The position numbers and the translations under genes are program-made. DNA of 56,834 nt from Methylotenera oryzisoli (lineage in GTDB: Bacteria; Pseudomonadota; Gammaproteobacteria; Burkholderiales; Methylophilaceae): positions 1 through 56,834 of the forward strand of contig CAMDTL010000011.1 in assembly GCA_945907735.1 (NCBI GenBank). Reading direction: 5' to 3'. The notes beneath the pieces are model-generated. The model made no database searches, was not told where the DNA came from, and worked only from the letters and a program-made list of their open reading frames with translations. Of this stretch, positions 27,050 to 44,113 are shown piece after piece; within the stretch, counting starts at the first letter, position 1, and each line of letters begins with the position of its first letter.

Positions 27050-27931
27050 GTGGAATTCTTAGCTGAATATATTCAATTTCTACAATTTGAGCGCGGCTTA
27101 AGCCCGCTTACCCGCGAAAATTACACCAGAGATATTGCGCAACTCATCAAACTTGCTGATTCAACTGATTTAAAATCATTACAAATCAATCAGATAAGAA
27201 AATTTATTGCCACCTTGCACAGCAAAGGCTTGGGTGGAAAAAGCATCGCGCGCAGGCTCTCAAGCTGGCGCGGATTTTTCGAATTTCTAGTCAATCGCAA
27301 GGGGTTTAGTAATAATCCTGTCATCGGCTTACGTGCGCCGAAATCCGCCAAAACGTTGCCGCAAGCACTTTCTATCGAACAAGCTGTTAAGCTCGTCGCT
27401 ATTAAAGATGATGATATTTTAAGCGTGCGTGATCATGCGATTTTAGAGCTGTTTTATTCGTCAGGATTACGCTTAAGCGAACTGGTAAATTTAGATATTG
27501 ATGCGCTGGACTTTTCTGCAGGCACGCTAGTTGTGACGGGAAAAGGCAACAAAACGCGCATTGTGCCACTGGGTAAATTTGCCATCGAGGCGATTCAAAA
27601 ATGGTTACAAATTCGCGCTACTATTTCTAATATTGATGCCGCCAGCAGGCCTGTGTTTATTGGATTGCAGGGCAGGCGCATTTCTGCCAGAAACATTCAA
27701 TATCGCTTAAAAGAATGGTCGATTAAGCAAGGTATTAACTCAAGCGTGCACCCGCACATGCTGCGCCACAGCTTTGCAACGCATGTGCTACAAAGCAGTG
27801 GCGATTTGCGCGCCGTGCAAGAAATGCTCGGCCACGCCAACATTAGCACCACCCAAGTTTATACGCATCTCGATTATCAACATTTAACCAAGGTCTATGA
27901 CACTGCCCATCCTCGCGCTAAGAAGAAATAG
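27050..27931 (+). CDS. xerC: Tyrosine recombinase XerC
   Basis: Chromosome dimer resolvase acting with XerD at dif. The 293 residues have an N-terminal core-binding domain (1-85) and a catalytic domain with Arg141 (SSGLRLSEL), Lys165, His236 and Arg239 (HPHMLRH), His262 and the nucleophile Tyr271 (STTQVYTHLD). The start is GTG at 27050, just after the DUF484 stop; no ATG lies in frame nearby. The rest of the family matches from the first residues. Confidence 0.96.
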   Translation: MEFLAEYIQFLQFERGLSPLTRENYTRDIAQLIKLADSTDLKSLQINQIRKFIATLHSKGLGGKSIARRLSSWRGFFEFLVNRKGFSNNPVIGLRAPKSAKTLPQALSIEQAVKLVAIKDDDILSVRDHAILELFYSSGLRLSELVNLDIDALDFSAGTLVVTGKGNKTRIVPLGKFAIEAIQKWLQIRATISNIDAASRPVFIGLQGRRISARNIQYRLKEWSIKQGINSSVHPHMLRHSFATHVLQSSGDLRAVQEMLGHANISTTQVYTHLDYQHLTKVYDTAHPRAKKK

Positions 27932-35934: not shown

Positions 35935-36130
35935 TGCTGTGGTGTTGCCTGAGCCGCTATCCTGAACCAAAAAAGTTCAGGTGGTGACAACCTAAAGCGC
36001 GTTAGGTACACTCGCCAAGGGATTCTTAAAAGAACGCCCAATTTAGAGCACGCACACAGCAACCTGATGAGCTGAAACCTATAACAAAGACTAGTTCAAG
36101 GAATATAAAGCTCAAGCAACACCACAGAAA
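35935..36130 (-). ncRNA. ssrS: 6S RNA
   Basis: On the minus strand a transcript of about 190 nt begins CTGTGGTGTTGCTTGAGC and ends GCTCAGGCAACACCACAG, two ends that pair almost perfectly to give the long closing stem of 6S RNA. The 3' portion, CACCTGAAC...GGTTCAGG followed by GCGGCTC, parallels the E. coli 3' arm, and the middle is an extended open region. The location directly downstream of zapA, same strand, is the classical ssrS position. It mimics an open promoter and sequesters sigma-70 polymerase in stationary phase. Confidence 0.88.
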
Positions 36131-36190
36131 ACAAGTTGAATTTTAGAGTCCGCTTGTGACGAACTGATGAAGGGAATTAGTTACAACAGC

Positions 36191-36487
36191 CTATTTTTGC
36201 ACAGCGATTGCTTCATCAATTTGATTCTGCATAGCGTTAATCCTACGCTTATAATCACCGATGTCAATATCGCCAGTTTTAGTATTAAGTAATTCGTGAG
36301 ATAAATTGAGCGCCGTCATAATGGCAATACGCTCAACCCCCACCACTTTGCCAGAATCGCGAATCTCGTGCATTTTTGAATCAAGATAAGCTACAGCATC
36401 CATCAAGCCTTGACGCTCTGCATCGGTGCATGAAACCGTGAACTCACGACCCAAAATGGTAACATCCACAAACTTAGTAGCGCTCAT
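36191..36487 (-). CDS. zapA: Cell division protein ZapA
   Basis: FtsZ-associated protein that stabilises the Z-ring, 98 residues. The N-terminal VDVTILGREFTVSC and the central AERQGLMDAVAYLDSKM are typical; a coiled-coil helix follows. The ATG overlaps the stop of the preceding ZapB-like gene (TAATG), so the two are translationally coupled, and 6S RNA follows downstream. Confidence 0.95.
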   Translation of the reverse strand: MSATKFVDVTILGREFTVSCTDAERQGLMDAVAYLDSKMHEIRDSGKVVGVERIAIMTALNLSHELLNTKTGDIDIGDYKRRINAMQNQIDEAIAVQK

Positions 36488-36687
36488 TAAGATTCCAACC
36501 CCGTAGATTCTGCGCTTTCAGGAAGTGACTCGAGCAACCCTTCAAGCTTATTGCTGACTTGCAGCATATTGTCTTTTGTCCGTGTTATATCGCTGCGCAG
36601 ACGAACGTTTTCCTCGCGCAAGTGAGTACACAAAGAAATAAGCTTGGTAACTTTCTCTTCTAAACTTTTCAGGTCAGACTCCATCAT
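36487..36687 (-). CDS. ZapB-like short coiled-coil protein
   Basis: Small protein, about 66 residues from the ATG at 36687 (a second ATG is adjacent; 11 further upstream codons are open but unlike the family). Almost all of it is one heptad-rich coiled coil: DLKSLEEKVTKLI, then LREENVRLRSD. This matches the TIGR02449/ZapB-like proteins encoded just before zapA in many proteobacteria. It probably assists division with ZapA. Confidence 0.85.
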   Translation of the reverse strand: MMESDLKSLEEKVTKLISLCTHLREENVRLRSDITRTKDNMLQVSNKLEGLLESLPESAESTGLES

Positions 36688-36979
36688 CCCACTATAAATT
36701 AAAAAAACCATTGAAGTCAATAGCTAACGCGGGCCATTCAAAGTAATTTAACATGTTTTGCACGCTTGCTGCCTATAAAAATAAAGGCAATTAGGGCGTT
36801 TCATCACTATGGTCTCTTAGGAGCAACGCATAGTTATCACGGCTCAACACGGTTTTTAGTGGTTCTACCCACTGTTTGCATGGCAGGAAGTGTATGTTTT
36901 GTGGTTCGTTTAAGGTGCATAAGCCCGCGCGCGGCTACGTTAAATATAGCCTTTGTAGCAAACAAAAGAGTGTAGAAAA

Positions 36980-37057
36980 TTATTTATTTACTTCAGGATA
37001 GCCTTGACGTCTTACTCGTGCTTGCCAGCCATTACTACGTTTTCTAAAAGAAGCCAT
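36980..37057 (-). pseudogene. Integrase N-terminal remnant, copy 1
   Basis: Only 25 codons (MASFRKRSNGWQARVRRQGY then PEVNK) remain of a phage-type tyrosine integrase, ending in a TAA where copy 2 at 42.7 kb has TCA (Ser). The upstream 100 bp, up to the tRNA-His fragment, match copy 2 closely. The start of such integrases lies next to the att site, as here. It lies outside the islet boundary, so it likely belongs to an earlier element inserted at the same tRNA. Confidence 0.85.
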
Positions 37058-37156
37058 ACTTATCTCCAAAAAGGACAAAAGTAGGACAAGTCTAGGTAGA
37101 GTACAGGAAAGGCCGAAGGCCGTTGTATTCAACTTGTTGAATACATTGGGATTTAA

Positions 37157-37202
37157 TGGGGTGGCTGATGGGGCTCGAACCCACGACAACAGGAATCACA
37201 AT
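37157..37202 (-). repeat. Duplicated 3' half of tRNA-His (distal att site)
   Basis: These 46 bases are identical to the 3' half of the intact tRNA-His at 42856-42901, from CCA up to the anticodon loop; after 37202 the match stops abruptly. Together with flanking DNA the similar region runs 36970-37202 against 42670-42901 (about 230 bp). A truncated tRNA copy in direct orientation is the signature of an element integrated into a tRNA gene. Confidence 0.92.
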
Positions 37203-37662
37203 GCTTACATTACAAGGTAAAACCCTTATAAATCAAGGCTCCATAAAACTCTTAACATCTCATTTCCCATTCGATTTGGGACAAAATTGGGACAATTCCC
37301 AATCACTAAATTACAAGTTAATTGTATCGTTTTTTCTTAATAATCACTATTAATTTGAAGGGCGGTTAGGGGAAATCCATCAGCTTTGAAATATGTAGTT
37401 AGGAGCTTTTTTATTTCTATCTTCCAGACTACGTATAGACTACACAAGCACTATGGGGGGGGGTATCGAAGTCCATCCTATACAAATATTAATGTGCCCA
37501 CTTTCTTACAAAATAGCAAAAATTGAAACATACTCAGAAATTGCTAAGCTGCAGAAAGGAGTTATTAGTGAAAATGGTTATTAAACGCTAGACTGATTCA
37601 TGGTGATAATTTTGATAGGACTTTAGTTTGACCCCTTGTACAAATAAGTTCAATGAAAGAGC
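37203..37662. other. Non-coding left part of islet
   Basis: I see no supportable gene in these 460 bases. They contain two short direct copies of a GGGACAA motif (near 37280 and 37293) that also occurs beside the integrase remnants, and a run of nine G at 37455-37463. They look like decayed element DNA. Confidence 0.6.
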
Positions 37663-37713
37663 GCCAAAATACTAAAAGCCCCGCAAAGCTATGTAGCAAT
37701 GTGGGGCTTTTTT
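37663..37713 (+). terminator. Terminator-like repeat, copy A
   Basis: The stem AAAAGCCCC / GGGGCTTTT (37674-37682 and 37703-37711) with a small inner stem GCT/AGC ends in six T. The first 32 bases match 30 of 32 bases at 42360-42391, and a diverged copy lies at 39975-40004. It can end the minus-strand receptor transcript as well. Confidence 0.8.
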
Positions 37714-37754
37714 ATTTCACAAAATCATGCAGAACAATCTTGGTTAATTTTTCA

Positions 37755-39830
37755 TTAGAACTTATAAGTGGCACCCACTTCAAAATTACGTTCAACACCC
37801 GGGAAAATACCATCTGGATTACGACTCGTGATGTATTTCTTATCTGCGAGATTTCTCACAGAACCAAACAAAGAAAGGTATTTATCAACAGCATAATATG
37901 CATTTAAATTGAATGTTGTGTAGCCAGAAATTTCACCTTTGGTACCATCATCAGTTTCAACTTTAGTATTTGCTGAATCCACATACTGACTAGAAACATA
38001 ATAGGCGCCTAAACTTGCTTTAAAGCTACCTAACTGGTATCCAAAATTCACATTACTGGTAAACTCAGGTGCATAAGGCAAGCGATTGCCTTTAGGGCCA
38101 AGATCACTGTTTCTAAACTCTGCTGTTGGTACATAAGTAACATTACCATCCAATTTCCAGCCTGATCCAATTTCATAGCCTAGCGCAAACTCCAAACCTT
38201 GATTCAAAGTTTTGCCACCATTGGCCTTATCTACCCCGCTAGACAGAGCCTGATTCACGATTTGATTTTCAAAATCCATGTGGAAAGCTGTGGCTTCATA
38301 AGCCAAGCGATTCATTTCACCACGCACACCTATTTCATAATTGGTTGAACGCTCTGCATCCAATTTTTGATCGACACCACCACCACTTATTGATGTCGCT
38401 GTCATTGCTGGCGAAAATCCTTTAAAAGCACCAACAAAAAACTGGGCCTGCGGTATAGCTTGCCATGTTGCTCCAATGCCTGGCACTACCTCTGTGTTAC
38501 TTGCATTTCCTTTAGTGCCAGTTAACTCATTTTTAAGTTTTTGGTCGTAATTTTCCACACGTACCCCAGGTGTTACTGCTACTTTATTGGTAAACTCAAA
38601 CCTGTTCTGAGCATATAAAGCTAGACCATCTGCTTTTTCTGTAACATTACCGGTTAATGTTCCTGAGCGAGCATCAGGATCAGTTTTAGAACGAACAGTT
38701 TTATTGCTTAAATGATCGCTGTGCAAACGAATACCAATTTCCGCTTCATTTCTGATGCCAAAACTGTTGTGGAGTATAAACATACGTGAATCTATGCCCA
38801 TCATTTCAAACTCACGATTTCGGCCGGTCATACAATATTGACTTGAAGTTAAAGTTAAATCACAGTTTCTGAAAGTTGTCCCGTTAGCATCTTTTGACTT
38901 AACATCACGTCGCCAGAAATCACGGTTCAACTGACTCCAGTACACCAGCGTATTCAATTTCACATTACTGCTGATATCCCACTCATGGTTAATATCAAAT
39001 GATTTTCGATCTGTAATGAAATAATCATTCGGTGCTGGATTTTTATCCGAACCATTCTTGTACTCATTTTTTCTTAATCCAACATACGATGTATTGATTT
39101 CATTGTCGTAATAGGTAAATTTGGCACTTAACCATTGATTATCTTTAATCTGCGTACCGCCTTTTAATACCACATCGGTCAAATCAAAGTCGTTATGGCG
39201 GAAACCATCACCGCGCGAAGTAATTACATTGATACCAGCAATGGTATCACCGGATTGAGTTGCACCACCAGCATCTAAACTAACTAGGCGATAACCATGT
39301 GAGCCAGTTTTTGCAGTCAGCTTTACACCATCTTCCGGATCTTTAGTTTTGTAATTGATCACACCGCCGATAGTAGTTGGTCCATAACGCAAACCAGCCG
39401 CACCTTTAAGCACTTCGATACTATCCATTCTTTCGATTCTAGGGCTGTAGTAGGATTCATTAGCCAAAAACAACCCAGGCGCTACTGGCACACCATCTTC
39501 CAGTATCAGCAGTTTTTGACTGCGGTTCGGATTCAAGCCTCGCATACCAATATTAGGAATAAAACCGTAGCCCTCTTCTTCTCGAATAACGAGCCCAGGT
39601 ATAGTTTTTAAGGCGTCCTGCGTGGAAAGTGGCTGCTTAAGTTCCAACTCTTCCAGTTTTATTATAGCGACAGAACCTGGCTGTTTGGTAATTGCCTGCT
39701 CACCTTTTCCAATAACATTAATACGTGGCAACTCAATCTCAGTGGCTACTGCTGATAGGTTAATAAAGAAAGTGCTATAGATTACTAGCGCAAGTTGCGC
39801 CTGACTTAAATACAACGTTCGTTTTTTCAT
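37755..39830 (-). CDS. TonB-dependent siderophore receptor, FecA-like
   Basis: Outer-membrane receptor of 691 residues. Signal peptide about 1-29; TonB box region ELPRINVIGKGE; plug with NIGMRGLNPNRSQKLLILED, and EVLKGAAGLRYGPTTIGGVIN; beta-barrel ending in FEVGATYKF with a terminal Phe. The order of motifs and the GxxYGPxTxGGxIN form resemble FecA-type ferric-citrate or similar ferric-siderophore receptors, but the N-terminal signalling domain of FecA is absent, so no FecI/FecR control is expected. A Fur box precedes the gene. The exact ligand is unknown. Confidence 0.87.
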   Translation of the reverse strand: MKKRTLYLSQAQLALVIYSTFFINLSAVATEIELPRINVIGKGEQAITKQPGSVAIIKLEELELKQPLSTQDALKTIPGLVIREEEGYGFIPNIGMRGLNPNRSQKLLILEDGVPVAPGLFLANESYYSPRIERMDSIEVLKGAAGLRYGPTTIGGVINYKTKDPEDGVKLTAKTGSHGYRLVSLDAGGATQSGDTIAGINVITSRGDGFRHNDFDLTDVVLKGGTQIKDNQWLSAKFTYYDNEINTSYVGLRKNEYKNGSDKNPAPNDYFITDRKSFDINHEWDISSNVKLNTLVYWSQLNRDFWRRDVKSKDANGTTFRNCDLTLTSSQYCMTGRNREFEMMGIDSRMFILHNSFGIRNEAEIGIRLHSDHLSNKTVRSKTDPDARSGTLTGNVTEKADGLALYAQNRFEFTNKVAVTPGVRVENYDQKLKNELTGTKGNASNTEVVPGIGATWQAIPQAQFFVGAFKGFSPAMTATSISGGGVDQKLDAERSTNYEIGVRGEMNRLAYEATAFHMDFENQIVNQALSSGVDKANGGKTLNQGLEFALGYEIGSGWKLDGNVTYVPTAEFRNSDLGPKGNRLPYAPEFTSNVNFGYQLGSFKASLGAYYVSSQYVDSANTKVETDDGTKGEISGYTTFNLNAYYAVDKYLSLFGSVRNLADKKYITSRNPDGIFPGVERNFEVGATYKF

Positions 39831-39874
39831 AGTTGTTGATTCTAAATAATTACCAAAATTGATAAATGCAATTA

Positions 39875-39897
39875 TACATGATAATCATTATCATTTA
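39875..39897 (-). promoter_or_regulatory. Fur box before the siderophore receptor
   Basis: The perfect palindrome TGATAATCATTATCA (39879-39893) sits in an AT-rich stretch ATGATAATCATTATCATTT and matches the core of the Fur consensus GATAATGATAATCATTATC. It lies 45-65 bp upstream of the receptor start, where it would cover the promoter and repress it in iron-rich conditions. Confidence 0.9.
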
Positions 39898-39934
39898 CAA
39901 TATTTATTCCAGTGCTGGATCGTTCTGTTAATTC

Positions 39935-40004
39935 GCACGCCCCTAGTTCGAACCCAGGTCGAGGACCAAATGGTAAAAGCCCTGCAGCGATGTGGGGCTT
40001 TTTT
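39935..40004 (+). other. tRNA-end-like fragment with terminator (repeat copy B)
   Basis: The plus strand reads CCCTAGTTCGAACCCAGG, like a T-arm with TTCGAAC loop, then GTCGAGGACCA, like an acceptor end with CCA, but no anticodon or D arm lies upstream. A hairpin AAAAGCCC...GGGCTTTTTT (39975-40004) follows at once, as after many tRNA genes. It looks like a scar of a tRNA 3' end carried by an integrative element. The remainder of 39831-40288 holds the Fur box and no other supportable gene. Confidence 0.45.
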
Positions 40005-40288
40005 AATTTGTGGCTCGGGTTACGCTGGGGTTACGTTATATTGAATTTCAGTGGTGATTTAATTGAACAAGTAAAAGAATTAAGTAATTTTGATATTTGG
40101 ATACGAACCAAGGAGTAAACTACAAAATTATTTACACCCTCTCTAGAGACGTTTAGATTCCTTGAAATACTTAGCCATATGCTTAACTGAAATTGAATAA
40201 ACTTATTAGGTGTAATTGAGGTATAGAGCGCCAAATGATAAAGCATACAAGCCAGTTAGCCCCAGATAGTTATATATTCATATTACGC

Positions 40289-40525
40289 TTACTGATCGTC
40301 TACAAATAAGTTAAGTGCTTTATTAACTAGTGGAGCAATTATCAAGATTGCAGCAAACACTACGGGCCACGCAATCACAATTGAAGACGACCAAACTTTG
40401 ATGAATTGTGTAAATGACTGAGAATGCAAGTAGATTAAAGTTCCTGACACAATCAATGAAGTAAAAAAAGACATGATTAGTGCAAATAGAACAGTGCGAT
40501 AACGATAAGGTATTTTATTTACCAT
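40289..40525 (-). CDS. DUF2798 small membrane protein
   Basis: Protein of 78 residues from the ATG at 40525; a GTG four codons earlier is also possible. Two hydrophobic helices (about 10-34 and 43-66) around a polar loop, with the RYRTVLFALIMSFFTSL start, fit the DUF2798 family. A role is not known. It follows the alpha/beta hydrolase gene on the same strand with 91 bp between them, so both may answer to the adjacent TetR regulator. Confidence 0.82.
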   Translation of the reverse strand: MVNKIPYRYRTVLFALIMSFFTSLIVSGTLIYLHSQSFTQFIKVWSSSIVIAWPVVFAAILIIAPLVNKALNLFVDDQ

Positions 40526-40616
40526 AATGTTTTTCACCTCGGATTTGGATTTGTTGATAAGGCTGAAACATTGTTTTATGGATGTTTCAGCCTCGCTTTT
40601 GATAAAAAGCTTGAGA

Positions 40617-41522
40617 TTAATGATTTAAGAAATAATTTGCCGTATTGACGAATGAATCGTGGTACTGAAAAATCGAGCCATGATTAGAGTCAGGATAAAG
40701 TACTAATTGTGCGTTTTTAAGTTGTTTGAACAGGGTTATTGAACCCTCAGTAGGTAGCATCGTGTCATTGCTACCAGTCACAACTAAAACTGGTTGGTTA
40801 ATTGATTTCAATGTTTTAAATTCAGGGTCTGGCGTGCTGGTAAATACGATGAGTGCTTTACCGTGGGCATCTGCAATTTCTTTACCGCTATTTGGGTCGC
40901 GATTTTCTGTTCTTGCATAAACGCGGGACAGGAATTCAGCCCCTGCTTTTTTCCCAGCCTCGGATTGAGAAAAAAACAAATAATCACGCGGATCGGGCGC
41001 ATTTTCTCTTGAAAACGCCTCACCCAGTACTTTCATTAAATTGTTGCCGCCTCCTTGGTGAGTAGTGCCTGCTAAAATGACCTTACGCACTAAGTCAGGG
41101 TATTTAGCCATTAGTTGTTGCGCCACAAACCCACCCATTGAAAAACCAAGTAAATCGACTTGTTTGTAGCCTAATGCTTGAATAAATGCATAGGCATCTG
41201 TTGTCATTTGCTCGATATTATCTGCAACTGTACCATCAGTCGCGCCAACACCTCTATTGTTAAATACGACAACGGGGCGCGTTTTTGCAAATGAATTGAC
41301 GACAGCAGGATCCCAAGCATCCATTGTGCCGGTAAAGTGTTGCAGAAACACTAATGGTGTACCTGACTTGGGCCCTAACGTACGATAAGAAAATTTAACG
41401 CCATTGGCTTCTATGTATTTTGTCGTTACTGTTTCAAGTTTTTCAACGGATAAAGATGAGCCTGATTCAACCACTGAATATTGTTTAGCTGTTGATAATA
41501 GAGATTTTAAAAATTTATTCAT
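40617..41522 (-). CDS. Alpha/beta hydrolase
   Basis: Serine hydrolase of 301 residues. The fold markers are present: oxyanion/HG-type LQHFTGTMDAWD, nucleophile elbow GFSMGG (Ser about 143), VLVVTGSNDTMLP with the acid residue, and PDSNHGSIFQYHD with the catalytic His. The substrate is unknown; similarity in style is to haloperoxidase or epoxide-hydrolase-like enzymes. It is divergent from the TetR regulator, the classic layout of a regulator beside its target. Confidence 0.87.
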   Translation of the reverse strand: MNKFLKSLLSTAKQYSVVESGSSLSVEKLETVTTKYIEANGVKFSYRTLGPKSGTPLVFLQHFTGTMDAWDPAVVNSFAKTRPVVVFNNRGVGATDGTVADNIEQMTTDAYAFIQALGYKQVDLLGFSMGGFVAQQLMAKYPDLVRKVILAGTTHQGGGNNLMKVLGEAFSRENAPDPRDYLFFSQSEAGKKAGAEFLSRVYARTENRDPNSGKEIADAHGKALIVFTSTPDPEFKTLKSINQPVLVVTGSNDTMLPTEGSITLFKQLKNAQLVLYPDSNHGSIFQYHDSFVNTANYFLNH

Positions 41523-41570
41523 TTATAACTCCTTGATAGGTTTATGAACTACAGAAAATTGCTATTTAAT

Positions 41571-41638
41571 TACCAATCGGTATATAAATATAATCCAGCA
41601 TGACTTGCCTTGTCAATCTTTTTTTGTAACAATTGGTA
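41571..41638. promoter_or_regulatory. Candidate TetR operator pair
   Basis: Two related sites lie in the 141-bp divergent region between the hydrolase and tetR genes: TACCAATCGGTA (41571-41582, palindromic) and, in the opposite strand sense, TAACAATTGGTA (41627-41638). Both have an ATTGGT core with AT-rich flanks of TATA. They fit autoregulation by the neighbouring TetR, but this is inferred from position and symmetry only. Confidence 0.5.
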
Positions 41639-41663
41639 TATTATTTAAATTAAGAGTTTAATC

Positions 41664-42269
41664 ATGACTACAGATATGAAAAAATCGCGTGGGCGTCCTA
41701 GAGTTTTTGATGTGGATGAAGCGCTCGAAAAGGCGTTGCGAATTTTTTGGGCAAGAGGCTATGAGGGAGCATCTCTAGCCGAACTAACTGAAACGCTAGG
41801 AATAAATAAGCCTAGTCTGTATGCTGCATTCGGGAATAAAGAAGAGTTATTTGAAAAAGCATTAATAAGATACGCATCAGGTCCAGTAGCTTTTGTAAGT
41901 GATGCTGTCAAAGAACCAACTGCCCGCAACGTTGCTGAAGCTGTTTTATATAAAGCTGCTGAATTCTTAACTGATCCGTCGCATCCCTTGGGATGCATGA
42001 TTGTGCAAGGAGCCTTATCTAGTGGTGAGAGTGCTGAATTGGTAAGAAATATTCTAATTAAATATAGAAGTTCATATGAAAACTTACTAGCGGAGCGCTT
42101 TAAGAAAGCGAAAAATGATGGCGATTTGTCGAATGATGATAATCCTAAGGATTTGGCTAAGTATCTCGCTACATTGCACCAAGGGATGTCAGTTCAAGCA
42201 ACGAGTGGAGCTACTAAAGATGAACTTTTAAAAATAGCAGACTTAGCACTAAAGGTTTGGCCAAAATAA
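41664..42269 (+). CDS. TetR/AcrR family transcriptional regulator
   Basis: Repressor of 201 residues; an internal ATG four codons on would give the more usual MKKSRGRPRVF start. The N-terminal DNA-binding domain (about 5-60) reads RIFWARGYEGASLAELTETL then GINKPSLYAAFGNKEELF, the TetR recognition helix region. The C-terminal part is the ligand domain with the GCMIVQGAL segment seen in the YcdC/BetI-like group. It probably regulates the divergent hydrolase-DUF2798 pair. Confidence 0.93.
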   Translation: MTTDMKKSRGRPRVFDVDEALEKALRIFWARGYEGASLAELTETLGINKPSLYAAFGNKEELFEKALIRYASGPVAFVSDAVKEPTARNVAEAVLYKAAEFLTDPSHPLGCMIVQGALSSGESAELVRNILIKYRSSYENLLAERFKKAKNDGDLSNDDNPKDLAKYLATLHQGMSVQATSGATKDELLKIADLALKVWPK

Positions 42270-42359
42270 GTAAATGCATACCCGTAAAGTCTATTAATTG
42301 TCATTACTTTTCAATGATAACAATACAATTCCAGTTCTCGGTTTTGTCCGCTTTGGTGA

Positions 42360-42391
42360 GCCAAAATACTAAAAGTCCCGCGAAGCTATGT
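42360..42391. repeat. Terminator-like repeat, copy C
   Basis: Matches copy A (37663-37694) at 30 of 32 bases in the same orientation; after ATGT the sequences part and the hairpin's right arm is lost here. With copy A it brackets the islet cargo as a second direct-repeat pair, 4.7 kb apart. A run of eight C follows at 42423-42430. Confidence 0.8.
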
Positions 42392-42449
42392 GAGCTGGGT
42401 CCAATTTAGTAGAAGTGACCTGCCCCCCCCTGTTTGCTGTACCAATTAA

Positions 42450-42608
42450 AAGGGGCTTCTTTCATTTCTTACACTAAGCCTGTTCACGTTATTGCTTTCT
42501 GGTTGCGGTATGGGCTGGCACCGAGAAGGTACATCTGAAGCAGAGTTCAACCGAGATAGATTTGATTGCGAGCAGCAAGCGTTGTATTGTCTGCCTCAAC
42601 ATGACTAA
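42450..42608 (+). pseudogene. Phage-type small lipoprotein remnant
   Basis: One open frame reads SLFTLLLSGCG, a lipoprotein signal with its Cys at 42504-42506, then WHREGTSEAEFNRDRFDCEQQA, a pattern common in phage and plasmid lipoproteins. There is no start codon after the upstream TAA (42447), and from about 42580 the sequence becomes the antisense of the integrase remnant. It is a broken gene fused to integrase DNA. Confidence 0.6.
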
Positions 42609-42756
42609 CAAACACACCTTTAGCCATCTCAGACTCAATTACCCTAGCCCAAGACTCCGCTTCCTTACGTGTAGAAAATGATTTATTTACTTCAGGATAG
42701 CCTTGACGTCTTACTCGTGCTTGCCAGCCATTAGAACGTTTACGAAAAGCTGCCAT
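42547..42756 (-). pseudogene. Integrase N-terminal remnant, copy 2
   Basis: From ATG at 42756 it reads MAAFRKRSNGWQARVRRQGY, then SFSTRKEAESWARVIESEM, and ends soon after EADNTTLA, where it runs into foreign sequence and a stop. This is the AP2/arm-binding N-terminal domain of phage-type tyrosine integrases; the core-binding and catalytic domains are gone. It stands 100 bp from the 3' end of tRNA-His, the usual place of an integrase in a tRNA-targeting element. Confidence 0.88.
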
Positions 42757-42855
42757 ACTTATCTCCAATTGGGACAAGAATGGGACAAAAGATGGTAGAG
42801 TACAGGAAAGGTCGAAGACCGTTGTATTCAACTTGTTGAATACATTGGGATTTAA

Positions 42856-42932
42856 TGGGGTGGCTGATGGGGCTCGAACCCACGACAACAGGAATCACAA
42901 TCCTGGACTCTACCAACTGAGCTACAACCACC
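42856..42932 (-). tRNA. tRNA-His (GTG)
   Basis: Cloverleaf complete with encoded CCA: acceptor GTGGTTG / CAGCCAC with the extra 5' G facing C73, anticodon loop TTGTGAT, and T-loop GTTCGAGCC. The 3' half doubles as the islet att site. Confidence 0.97.
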
Positions 42933-42971
42933 ATTGAAACTAGAAGCTGGTGAAACTAAAAAAACTAAATT

Positions 42972-43048
42972 TGGCCTGCCCGACAGGAATCGAACCTGTA
43001 ACCCCCAGCTTAGAAGGCTGGTGCTCTATCCGGTTGAGCTACGGGCAG
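42972..43048 (-). tRNA. tRNA-Arg (TCT)
   Basis: Acceptor CTGCCCG / CGGGCAG with discriminator G and encoded CCA; anticodon loop CTTCTAA within the stem CCAGC / GCTGG; T-loop GGTTCGATTCC. It is the middle gene of the tRNA cluster. Confidence 0.97.
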
Positions 43049-43084
43049 ATGAGTTACATGACACTGTCGAATAAACCAAAATAC

Positions 43085-43161
43085 TGGTCGGCGTGGAGAG
43101 ATTCGAACTCCCGACATCCTGCTCCCAAAGCAGGCGCGCTACCAGACTACGCTACACGCCG
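43085..43161 (-). tRNA. tRNA-Pro (TGG)
   Basis: Acceptor CGGCGTG / CACGCCG with discriminator A and encoded CCA; anticodon loop TTTGGGA within CCTGC / GCAGG; T-loop AGTTCGAATC. It is the first gene of the Pro-Arg-His cluster. Confidence 0.97.
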
Positions 43162-43171
43162 AAGAGGCAGA

Positions 43172-43200
43172 AATATAGCGCAAACAAGGCATTTGGTCAA
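43172..43200 (-). promoter_or_regulatory. Sigma-70 promoter of the tRNA operon
   Basis: On the minus strand TTGACC (43200-43195) and TATATT (43177-43172) are 17 nt apart, ending 10 bp before the tRNA-Pro 5' end. This is a near-consensus promoter; a GCGC-rich discriminator, expected for stringent control, precedes the -10 rather than follows it. Confidence 0.88.
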
Positions 43201-43252
43201 TTCGAATATGTTAAAATGCTGTTTTATTTTGAATAAATATTTGAATTAACGC

Positions 43253-44113
43253 ATGACAGCACAAATTATTAACGGTAAGGCCATCGCTGAAAATTTACTA
43301 GCTAGCATTAAATTAAAAATAGATGCACGCATTGTAGCCGGCAAGCGTGCGCCCTGCTTGGCGGTGATTTTGGTGGGCGCAGACCCAGCCTCCGCAATTT
43401 ATGTACGTAACAAACGCAAAGCGTGCGAAAAAATCGGCATACGCTCTATCGCGTACGAATTATCCGCCGACACTAGCGAAGCCAATTTATTTACACTGGT
43501 TGATCGACTGAACAACGATGCCACCGTGGACGGCATTTTAGTGCAATCACCTTTACCGCCGCAAATTGATGAAGAACGACTCATCGAACGCATCAATGTC
43601 GATAAAGATGTGGATGGTTTTCATCCTTATAATATTGGCCGTTTGGCGATTCGCCAGCCTACATTGCGCTCTTGCACGCCGTTTGGTGTCATCAAAATGT
43701 TGCAAGCGGTCAACATTGATTTGATGGGTTTGGATGCGACCATCGTCGGCGTTTCTAATCATGTTGGCCGCCCGATGGCGCTGGAGCTTTTATTAGCAGG
43801 TTGCACCATCACCAGCTGTCATCGCCACACCAAAGATTTGGCTGGCAAAGTTAGAAATGCCGATTTAATTATCGCCGCCGCGGGCAAGGCTGGCCTAATC
43901 CAAGGCGACTGGATTAAAGCTGGTGCAATTGTGGTGGATATTGGCATTAACCGCTTGGCCGATGGCAGTATTTGCGGAGATGTTGATTTTAATGCCGCCA
44001 AAGCACGTGCCAGTTACATTACGCCAGTGCCAGGCGGTGTGGGCCCAATGACGGTAGCGACGCTGATGGAAAATACTTTGTTAGCGCTTGAATTAAAAGA
44101 AAAAATTAGCTGA
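43253..44113 (+). CDS. folD: Methylenetetrahydrofolate dehydrogenase / cyclohydrolase
   Basis: Bifunctional enzyme linking 5,10-methylene-THF and 10-formyl-THF, 286 residues. Motifs are intact: [14 protein letters not shown] with the catalytic Lys, [25 protein letters not shown], and the closing [19 protein letters not shown]. It supplies one-carbon units to purH and fmt. The gene is divergent from the tRNA operon. Confidence 0.98.

Follow-up and report, generated by a model that had tools for sequence, protein, structure and literature searches.

Genomic islands integrated into tRNA genes are recognised, in the Islander definition, by an intact tRNA gene, a same-orientation 3' fragment of that gene 2-200 kb downstream and an integrase gene inside the interval, and attachment at the anticodon loop has already been described (PMC4383910, in excerpt). 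The tandem accretion of islands derived from integrative and conjugative elements (ICEs) or integrative and mobilizable elements (IMEs) has been described as well, together with cis-mobilizable elements (CIMEs) (PMC5704250, in excerpt), and 15 of the 31 Dehalococcoides ssrA islands were found without an integration module (PMC3146451, in excerpt). Here, we analyse an islet at the tRNA-His gene of Methylotenera oryzisoli (Methylophilaceae), located in a stretch of 56,834 nucleotides (contig CAMDTL010000011.1, assembly GCA_945907735.1) that is referred to, at its full length, as the window. The islet has the intact tRNA gene and the downstream 3' fragment (46 nt, 5.7 kb apart), and departs from the Islander definition in its integrase, of which a 69-codon N-terminal piece without the catalytic domain lies in the interval; since only this remnant is left, the islet is regarded as the fossil of a tRNA-integrated island. 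Very probably, two related elements integrated successively into tRNA-His, both integrases died, and a CIME was left behind while the rest of the older element was lost at a rearrangement.

Repeats, integrase remnants and putative arm-type sites at tRNA-His

The features that bear on the order of the insertions are the following:

42856-42931, minus strand: intact tRNA-His gene (anticodon GTG), whose 3' 46 nt (42856-42901) form the predicted attL core (ARAGORN and repeat search)
37157-37202, minus strand: displaced tRNA-His 3' half, predicted attR core, identical at 46 of 46 positions (repeat search)
42547-42756, minus strand: int2, the N-terminal 69 codons (arm-binding part) of a tyrosine integrase, truncated, without catalytic domain (open reading frame, profile and homology searches)
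36971-37057, minus strand: int1, an N-terminal integrase remnant with 25 codons before a TAA, homology up to codon 29, then cut (homology search)
42771-42788, minus strand: predicted pair of arm-type sites, TTGTCCCATTCTTGTCCC, 67 bp away from the core towards int2 (motif scan)
37278-37295, minus strand: predicted pair of arm-type sites, TTGTCCCAATTTTGTCCC, beyond the displaced core (attR side), with the int2-side heptamer (motif scan)
37072-37089, minus strand: paired predicted arm-type sites TTGTCCTACTTTTGTCCT beside int1, assigned to the older element (motif scan)

The tRNA-His gene stands at the end of an operon containing tRNA-Arg and tRNA-Pro (ARAGORN), and an Rfam scan of 36000-43300 returned nothing credible besides these three tRNAs. 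The duplication of its 3' half, reported in the initial annotation, is exact: the two 46-nt copies lie on the same strand, 5.7 kb apart, with 100% identity. Alignment of their flanks places them in a direct repeat of 236 nt (36970-37205 and 42669-42904) with 91% identity and 21 differences in 236 positions, distributed as a mosaic, which extends from the tRNA-His half into the start of the integrase gene. No third copy was listed in a search of the own assembly, a metagenome-assembled genome (MAG) of 1.42 Mb that is 88% complete. A chance origin of the 46-nt match, raised initially as a possible refutation, is excluded by its full identity and by relatives, because the tRNA identity stops in the anticodon loop as it does in relatives and each copy is accompanied by an 11-bp-spaced arm pair about 67 bp from the core.

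The two related integrase starts next to the copies, annotated with 69 and 25 codons, proved to be N-termini of a tyrosine integrase of about 330 aa, the full gene of which is present in relatives; the int1 remnant matches with 93% identity over 29 aa and contains one TAA. Searched with six integrase queries, the whole window yielded the int1 start, the int2 start and the core XerC gene (27050-27931) only, in agreement with the earlier statement that both integrases are dead. The rest of int1 was absent from the whole window in a search with full-length integrases, and nothing was detected at the left window end.

Between the core and each integrase start lies a tandem of TTGTCCY heptamers with 11-bp spacing, and the further pair at 37278-37295 sits 76 bp inside the islet from the displaced core. 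This is the expected place of the second attP arm, which supports site-specific integration. Within the window, 37278 and 42771 are the only places of the pair GGGACAA (TTGTCCC on the opposite strand), which none of 200 resampled windows contained. Because both islet-bounding pairs share TTGTCCC and the outer remnant has TTGTCCT, as do six relatives with a strict pair, the islet would be a single element that has kept both of its arms, and int1 would be the trace of an earlier one. An arm function of the TTGTCCY pairs is inferred from their position and repetition.

Thus delimited, 37203-42855 is a single element with a predicted, readable attL and attR, i.e., a putative CIME, set against an older decayed element. 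As judged from sequence only, core and arm pairs are retained on both sides. The integration and transfer genes are lost: int2 is truncated, the six integrase queries gave no other match in the islet, and the larger open reading frames that were scanned encode a receptor, a DUF2798 protein, a hydrolase and a TetR regulator. With respect to tandem accretion, i.e., stacked elements with an att copy each, two integrase starts and two arm types are present and the outer att copy of element 1 is missing.

The following course of events is proposed. A first tyrosine-integrase element would have entered the 3' half of tRNA-His, with the crossover in the anticodon loop to judge from the end of identity, and int1 with its TTGTCCT arm sites would have formed its tRNA-proximal end. 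A second, related element with TTGTCCC arms would then have integrated at the same, restored tRNA-His, as indicated by the identical core and the same-heptamer pairs at attL and attR, and would have displaced the int1 end 5.7 kb outward. Subsequently, int2 might have been truncated after about 65 codons, and the remainder of int1, of element 1 and its attR might have been lost in a rearrangement that, judging from gene order, also brought zapB. The end state would be a CIME that has attL and attR and no integrase; its cargo, a siderophore receptor module plus a hydrolase/TetR module, was probably put together at a tRNA-Asn site, either prior to or in the course of the stay at tRNA-His. Core, arm pairs and integrase starts thus allow the order of two insertions to be read after the loss of the integrases.

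A near-perfect 22-nt palindrome, TGTATTCAACTTGTTGAATACA, is located in the core-to-arm interval of both repeat copies (37124-37145 and 42823-42844), and a relative with a remnant of the same integrase, G113, has a similar one, CAACAAGTTG; the palindrome is possibly an excisionase or regulator site.

The integrase family and its insertion site in relatives

The family comparison covered 187 genomes, the own one included (186 others), here denoted by numbers with the prefix G. The N-terminal integrase piece was matched in 49 of them, again including the own (E <= 0.01). Nine of the 30 loci of this integrase type that were examined in detail lie at tRNA-His or a tRNA-His copy. In seven of the 30 (window, G021, G029, G113, G168, G180 and G197), the integrase start lies 54-100 bp 3' of tRNA-His, with the gene pointing away from the tRNA; in G113, 27 nt of tRNA-His are present at the contig start and the integrase is a 91-aa remnant, the integrase match in G021 contains one TGA, and G180 is Methylotenera sp. 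Baikal-deep-G97. In G185, whose 72-nt tRNA-His copy lacks the first 4 nt, and in G207, with a 48-nt copy, the integrase start is located on the opposite flank of the copy, as it would be at an attR end; the window has the reverse arrangement. Full-length integrases of the type have 322-331 aa and a phage-integrase catalytic domain, and the nearest phage integrases among the matches listed, those of PAJU2-like Pseudomonas phages, share 43% identity.

The tRNA-His query matched all 81 genomes against which it was run, some of them only partially. Displaced tRNA-His 3' copies on the same contig were found in at least 11 of these (G000, G006, G008, G009, G011, G012, G015, G029, G052, G055 and G062), and those of seven relatives were confirmed in their DNA. 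In G009, tRNA-His 3' ends follow one another five times, the intact tRNA closing the series. Together with the arm sites and the integrases found 3' of tRNA-His in relatives, this array agrees with the serial integration of related elements put forward initially. None of the islet proteins, nor zapA or zapB, was found in the 20 tRNA-His regions of relatives that were compared for gene content, some of which are short. A second, unrelated integrase family (333 aa) uses tRNA-His as well: the tRNA lies within 1.5 kb in 12 of the 13 loci checked (tRNA-Pro only in G132; seven further listed matches are outside this count), and in G012 the integrase is accompanied by DUF4224 and Rep_trans genes.

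The arm pairs were followed through 36 tRNA-His 3' flanks, four of them shorter than 30 nt. A strict TTGTCCY pair is present in six (window, G007, G021, G168, G180 and G197) and additionally in G113, and among the family loci compared, TTGTCCY-N4-TTGTCCY was found only at tRNA-His (the three own sites and G007, G021, G113, G168, G180 and G197). The spacing has a wider distribution. For a period control, the best 80 of at least 566 confirmed candidate loci were taken as named integrase loci, of which 71 remained after dropping nine near-duplicates. An exact repeat of at least 7 nt with an 11-bp period stands by the integrase start in 46 of the 71; other periods from 7 to 30 gave 0-6 loci each, and shuffling gave a mean of 1.07 and a maximum of 5 in 200 rounds (11-bp control). 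The heptamer varies among these loci, many having the form TG-NNN-CA, and the 11-bp spacing is constant. A limited literature search found no description of arm pairs for this integrase family, which does not prove that none exists. The 11-bp-spaced pair by the integrase start is a cheap marker for the family and its fossils. In G007, for instance, an arm pair lies 67 bp from tRNA-His beside an apparent eroded integrase start, with no integrase gene left. The site is thus scarred by an ancient insertion and not empty, and the pair flags an insertion site that would otherwise pass as empty.

Several observations weigh against the serial integration of two elements at tRNA-His. The attR of element 1 itself was not found, the zapB junction at the outer edge is supported by one MAG contig, and the arm function of the pairs is read from position and repetition. 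The strict TTGTCCY pair is missing in G029, G185 and G207, the latter two of which have, by eye, 11-bp-spaced pairs of other heptamers. In Glaciimonas soli, which does not belong to the family, a strict TTGTCCC pair stands next to an integrase, and no tRNA was detected up to 600 bp away; outside the family, the heptamer is thus not tied to tRNA-His. Finally, the divergence between the repeat copies is uneven, with 19 of the 21 differences in nt 86-170 and two stretches, of 83 and 53 nt, in which the copies do not differ (P of about 0.002 or lower). The divergent patch of 85 nt spans the arm sites and the integrase start, and the mosaic implies an exchange between the copies or between related elements, as far as the pattern can be read, and not a simple divergence of two copies.

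This mosaic, with its clean stretches outside the core, is what recombination leaves, and the repeat is longer than the core. A single element might therefore account for the islet, the second integrase start having come from homologous recombination in the 236-nt repeat, between a circle and a resident relative, or from a local duplication, without any integrase. However, the attR side carries int2-type arm sites 76 bp inside the islet, as site-specific integration predicts, and the displaced copies of relatives stop close to the anticodon loop and lack integrase repeats of this kind, which makes an origin from one element very unlikely.

The zapB junction and the cargo of the islet

The outer edge of the islet is formed by one feature:

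36808-36970, no strand: junction between the zapB upstream region and the int1 remnant, a putative rearrangement breakpoint (comparison with same-genus loci)

Homology of the zapB side to same-genus loci stops at 36767-36807, and int1 starts at 36970. The initial annotation had expected an empty site in which zapB adjoins the tRNA-Pro/Arg/His operon. No such site was found: in 12 of the 14 other same-genus loci, zapB-zapA lies beside a divergent TonB-receptor-like frame (the remaining two being one contig end and one uncertain frame), seven of these frames were confirmed as receptors by tblastn, and zapB as the natural neighbour and marker of an empty site is thereby ruled out. The tRNA-His gene itself meets a response regulator in five of the seven same-genus regions of sufficient length (G006, G007, G008, G010 and G011); in G009 and G012, none stands by tRNA-His within the 9 kb viewed. 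An orthologue of the regulator was not detected in the own assembly (best match 39%), which is 88% complete.

Further differences concern the neighbourhood. The block zapB..htpX is inverted in the window relative to G007 and G012, and NfeD-stomatin-MoeB lies on the other side of folD-dksA (in G007 and G012, MoeB alone was found). A single zapB..htpX inversion as the full account was rejected: the order of lgt, zapA and tRNA-His in G007 and G012 is not convertible by one inversion, and NfeD-stomatin-MoeB moved too. The local gene order around zapB is, from these comparisons, apparently reshuffled, and we infer that the remainder of int1 was lost in the rearrangement, along with element 1 and its att copy. 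A btuB-like receptor of the window (region of 2437-2943) lies beside lgt, and in the genus a receptor is divergent from zapB (cf. 36720-36970). The leader of this btuB-like receptor presumably resembles a cobalamin riboswitch.

The order zapB-islet-tRNA was found only in this window, and contigs of relatives break at the 3' end of tRNA-His (G003, G004, G009 and G013, with 2-26 nt of flank left), as might be expected if the junction were no true rearrangement but a product of faulty assembly or binning of the MAG. Yet the junction lies outside the repeat, and the repeat copies differ at 21 positions, so that an assembler need not confuse them; an error of this kind appears highly improbable.

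Inside the islet, the following features were distinguished:

37663-37717, plus strand: repeat A, a GCCA end with tRNA-Asn-type terminator, weak alone (nhmmer, E 4.7e-4)
37755-39830, minus strand: cargo 1, TonB-dependent siderophore receptor (TIGR01783, 259 bits against a cut-off of 223.5, NCBIfam)
39878-39896, no strand: Fur-box-like palindrome ATGATAATCATTATCATTT upstream of the receptor (sequence)
39925-40009, plus strand: decayed tRNA-Asn 3' half (anticodon loop to CCA) with terminator, between the cargo modules (nhmmer, E 3.4e-18)
40289-40537, minus strand: DUF2798 membrane protein (profile search)
40617-41522, minus strand: cargo 2, alpha/beta hydrolase (PF00561; profile search)
41664-42269, plus strand: cargo 2, regulator of the TetR family, oriented divergently to the hydrolase (profile search)
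42330-42391, plus strand: repeat C, of the same kind as repeat A (repeat and homology search)
42471-42581, plus strand: lipoprotein-like gene fragment, identified by eye, running into the truncated int2 (open reading frame)

Homology of module DNA spans 37745-39908 and 40616-42272. Of the 186 other family genomes, 13 carry the receptor with at least 71% identity, all of them outside the genus, and 14 others carry the hydrolase with at least 78%, one being a member of the genus (G012); the divergent hydrolase/TetR pair is kept in all five relatives' loci inspected. Lower GC (islet 39.0%, window 44.9%), absence from the 20 tRNA-His regions and the spread of the receptor outside the genus indicate that the cargo is foreign. 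The palindrome ATGATAATCATTATCATTT lies inside the DNA conserved with the relatives of the receptor; by its likeness to the consensus, it is a putative Fur box. The death of the integrases need not have fixed the cargo in the chromosome, as was claimed earlier, in that attL and attR keep core and arms and an integrase supplied in trans might still excise it. Of the initial interpretation, the two successive integrations and the dead integrases thus stand, the empty zapB site was not found, the cargo need not be immobile, and the tRNA-Asn 3' half had been overlooked.

This half (39925-40009) is 87% identical over 81 nt to the region of the own tRNA-Asn on another contig. The weaker repeats A and C are located at module boundaries; repeat C is 94% identical to repeat A over 32 nt and shares 82% of 62 nt with a G009 site that has a tRNA-Asn-type terminator. 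The score of repeat A was reached by 12 matches in 795 kb of other loci, eight of them in loci chosen for matching 39925-40009 (repeat B) and four being tRNA-Phe or its 3' copies. In a search of 36700-42855 with 48 distinct tRNAs of 12 kinds, only fragments of tRNA-His and tRNA-Asn were credible. Islands of the genus also use tRNA-Asn as their site, with an exact 46-nt copy 34 kb from the gene in G012 and copies in G007 and, on another contig, in G010. Since the tRNA-Asn fossil separates the modules, a tRNA-Asn site was probably where the cargo took shape, either before it arrived here or while it resided here; the tRNA-Asn end may have come by such earlier assembly, by later insertion or by fusion in a rearrangement.

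The last of these routes would make the islet a fusion of tRNA-His and tRNA-Asn island remnants, produced by the zapB rearrangement, and not one element with composite cargo. It would agree with the tRNA-Asn 3' half and terminator between the modules, with the two weaker copies outside, with the use of tRNA-Asn as an island site and with the rearranged gene order around the islet. The tRNA-Asn-type repeats, however, lie inside the same-heptamer arm pairs (37278 and 42771), so that a fusion must fall within the element on both sides, and the own tRNA-Asn has no second copy in the 10.1 kb around the gene. Taken together, a fusion seems unlikely, if not negligibly so.

Arrays in relatives suggest another role for tRNA ends. 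G009 (tRNA-His), G010 (tRNA-Asn) and G042 (tRNA-Phe) contain small modules, 1.0-3.9 kb in size, that all terminate in a tRNA 3' half. None of ten small modules (G006, G009, G010 and G042; three tRNA sites) matched the six integrase queries, and all four tRNA-His elements of 5.2-7.9 kb did, one query having been taken from one of these four. In this light, tRNA 3' halves with terminator might be the ends of integrase-less cassettes of 1-4 kb, which would stack head to tail at tRNA-His, tRNA-Asn and tRNA-Phe by an integrase acting in trans, in an integron-like manner, and the receptor and hydrolase modules of the islet would be two tRNA-Asn-type cassettes carried within a tRNA-His element. The outermost copy in G042 appears, by eye, to have kept its terminator and lost the tRNA part, as repeats A and C seem to have done. 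No terminator is evident in the tRNA-His array of G009, so that the terminator holds for tRNA-Asn and tRNA-Phe only. Drawn from few genomes and integrase queries of limited range, such a cassette system is decidedly doubtful. It becomes testable in Methylophilaceae through the tRNA-Asn end in a tRNA-His island and the integrase-less arrays of relatives.

The arrays show some features of their own. The four integrase-less modules of G009 (C33, L050:7630-19587) mostly share a start, AAGTGTCTAATATCGA (exact in 3 of 5), and an end, TTANATGATTATGCAAC (exact in 3 of 4), and the end motif had no match in viral contigs. In G042 (C1:861409-868420), small integrase-less modules and three copies of the tRNA end come after tRNA-Phe; two are displaced copies, and of the third, judged by eye, only the terminator is left. 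One of the modules encodes an autotransporter (PF03797) with a ubiquitin domain (PF00240, E 1.8e-31), another a Fic protein.

Comparison with described islands

The islet is probably a fresh case of an already known process, i.e., tandem accretion leaving a CIME, in the form of a well-preserved fossil. As background to the systems compared below, Ccr-like recombinases are of the serine type, and a tycheposon is a tRNA-bounded tyrosine-recombinase element with replication or helicase genes. Like the CIMEs and accreted islands of PMC5704250, the islet is a decayed element with attL and attR that has lost its integrase, next to a related element at the same gene end; in contrast to them, it shows no conjugation or mobilization genes, both of its integrases are dead, and its att arms are read from sequence alone. 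The ssrA islands of Dehalococcoides (PMC3146451) are similar in that serial islands occupy one RNA gene and each is ended by a direct repeat of the 3' end, and differ in their Ccr-like recombinases, transfer-messenger RNA target and 20-bp repeat, as compared to a tyrosine integrase, tRNA-His and a 46-nt core.

Within the same family, the flexible genomic island fGI-2 of Ca. Methylopumilus combines a variable number of tRNA 3'-end repeats with variable genes (330 bp to 42 kb), at tRNA-Lys and with 20-nt repeats, whereas the islet lies at tRNA-His, which is not mentioned in the excerpted text (PMC10872708). Tycheposons resemble the islet in being bordered by a tRNA, in their tyrosine recombinase and in their nutrient-related cargo; those of PMC10872708 are at tRNA-Met, and the comparison is confined to these traits.

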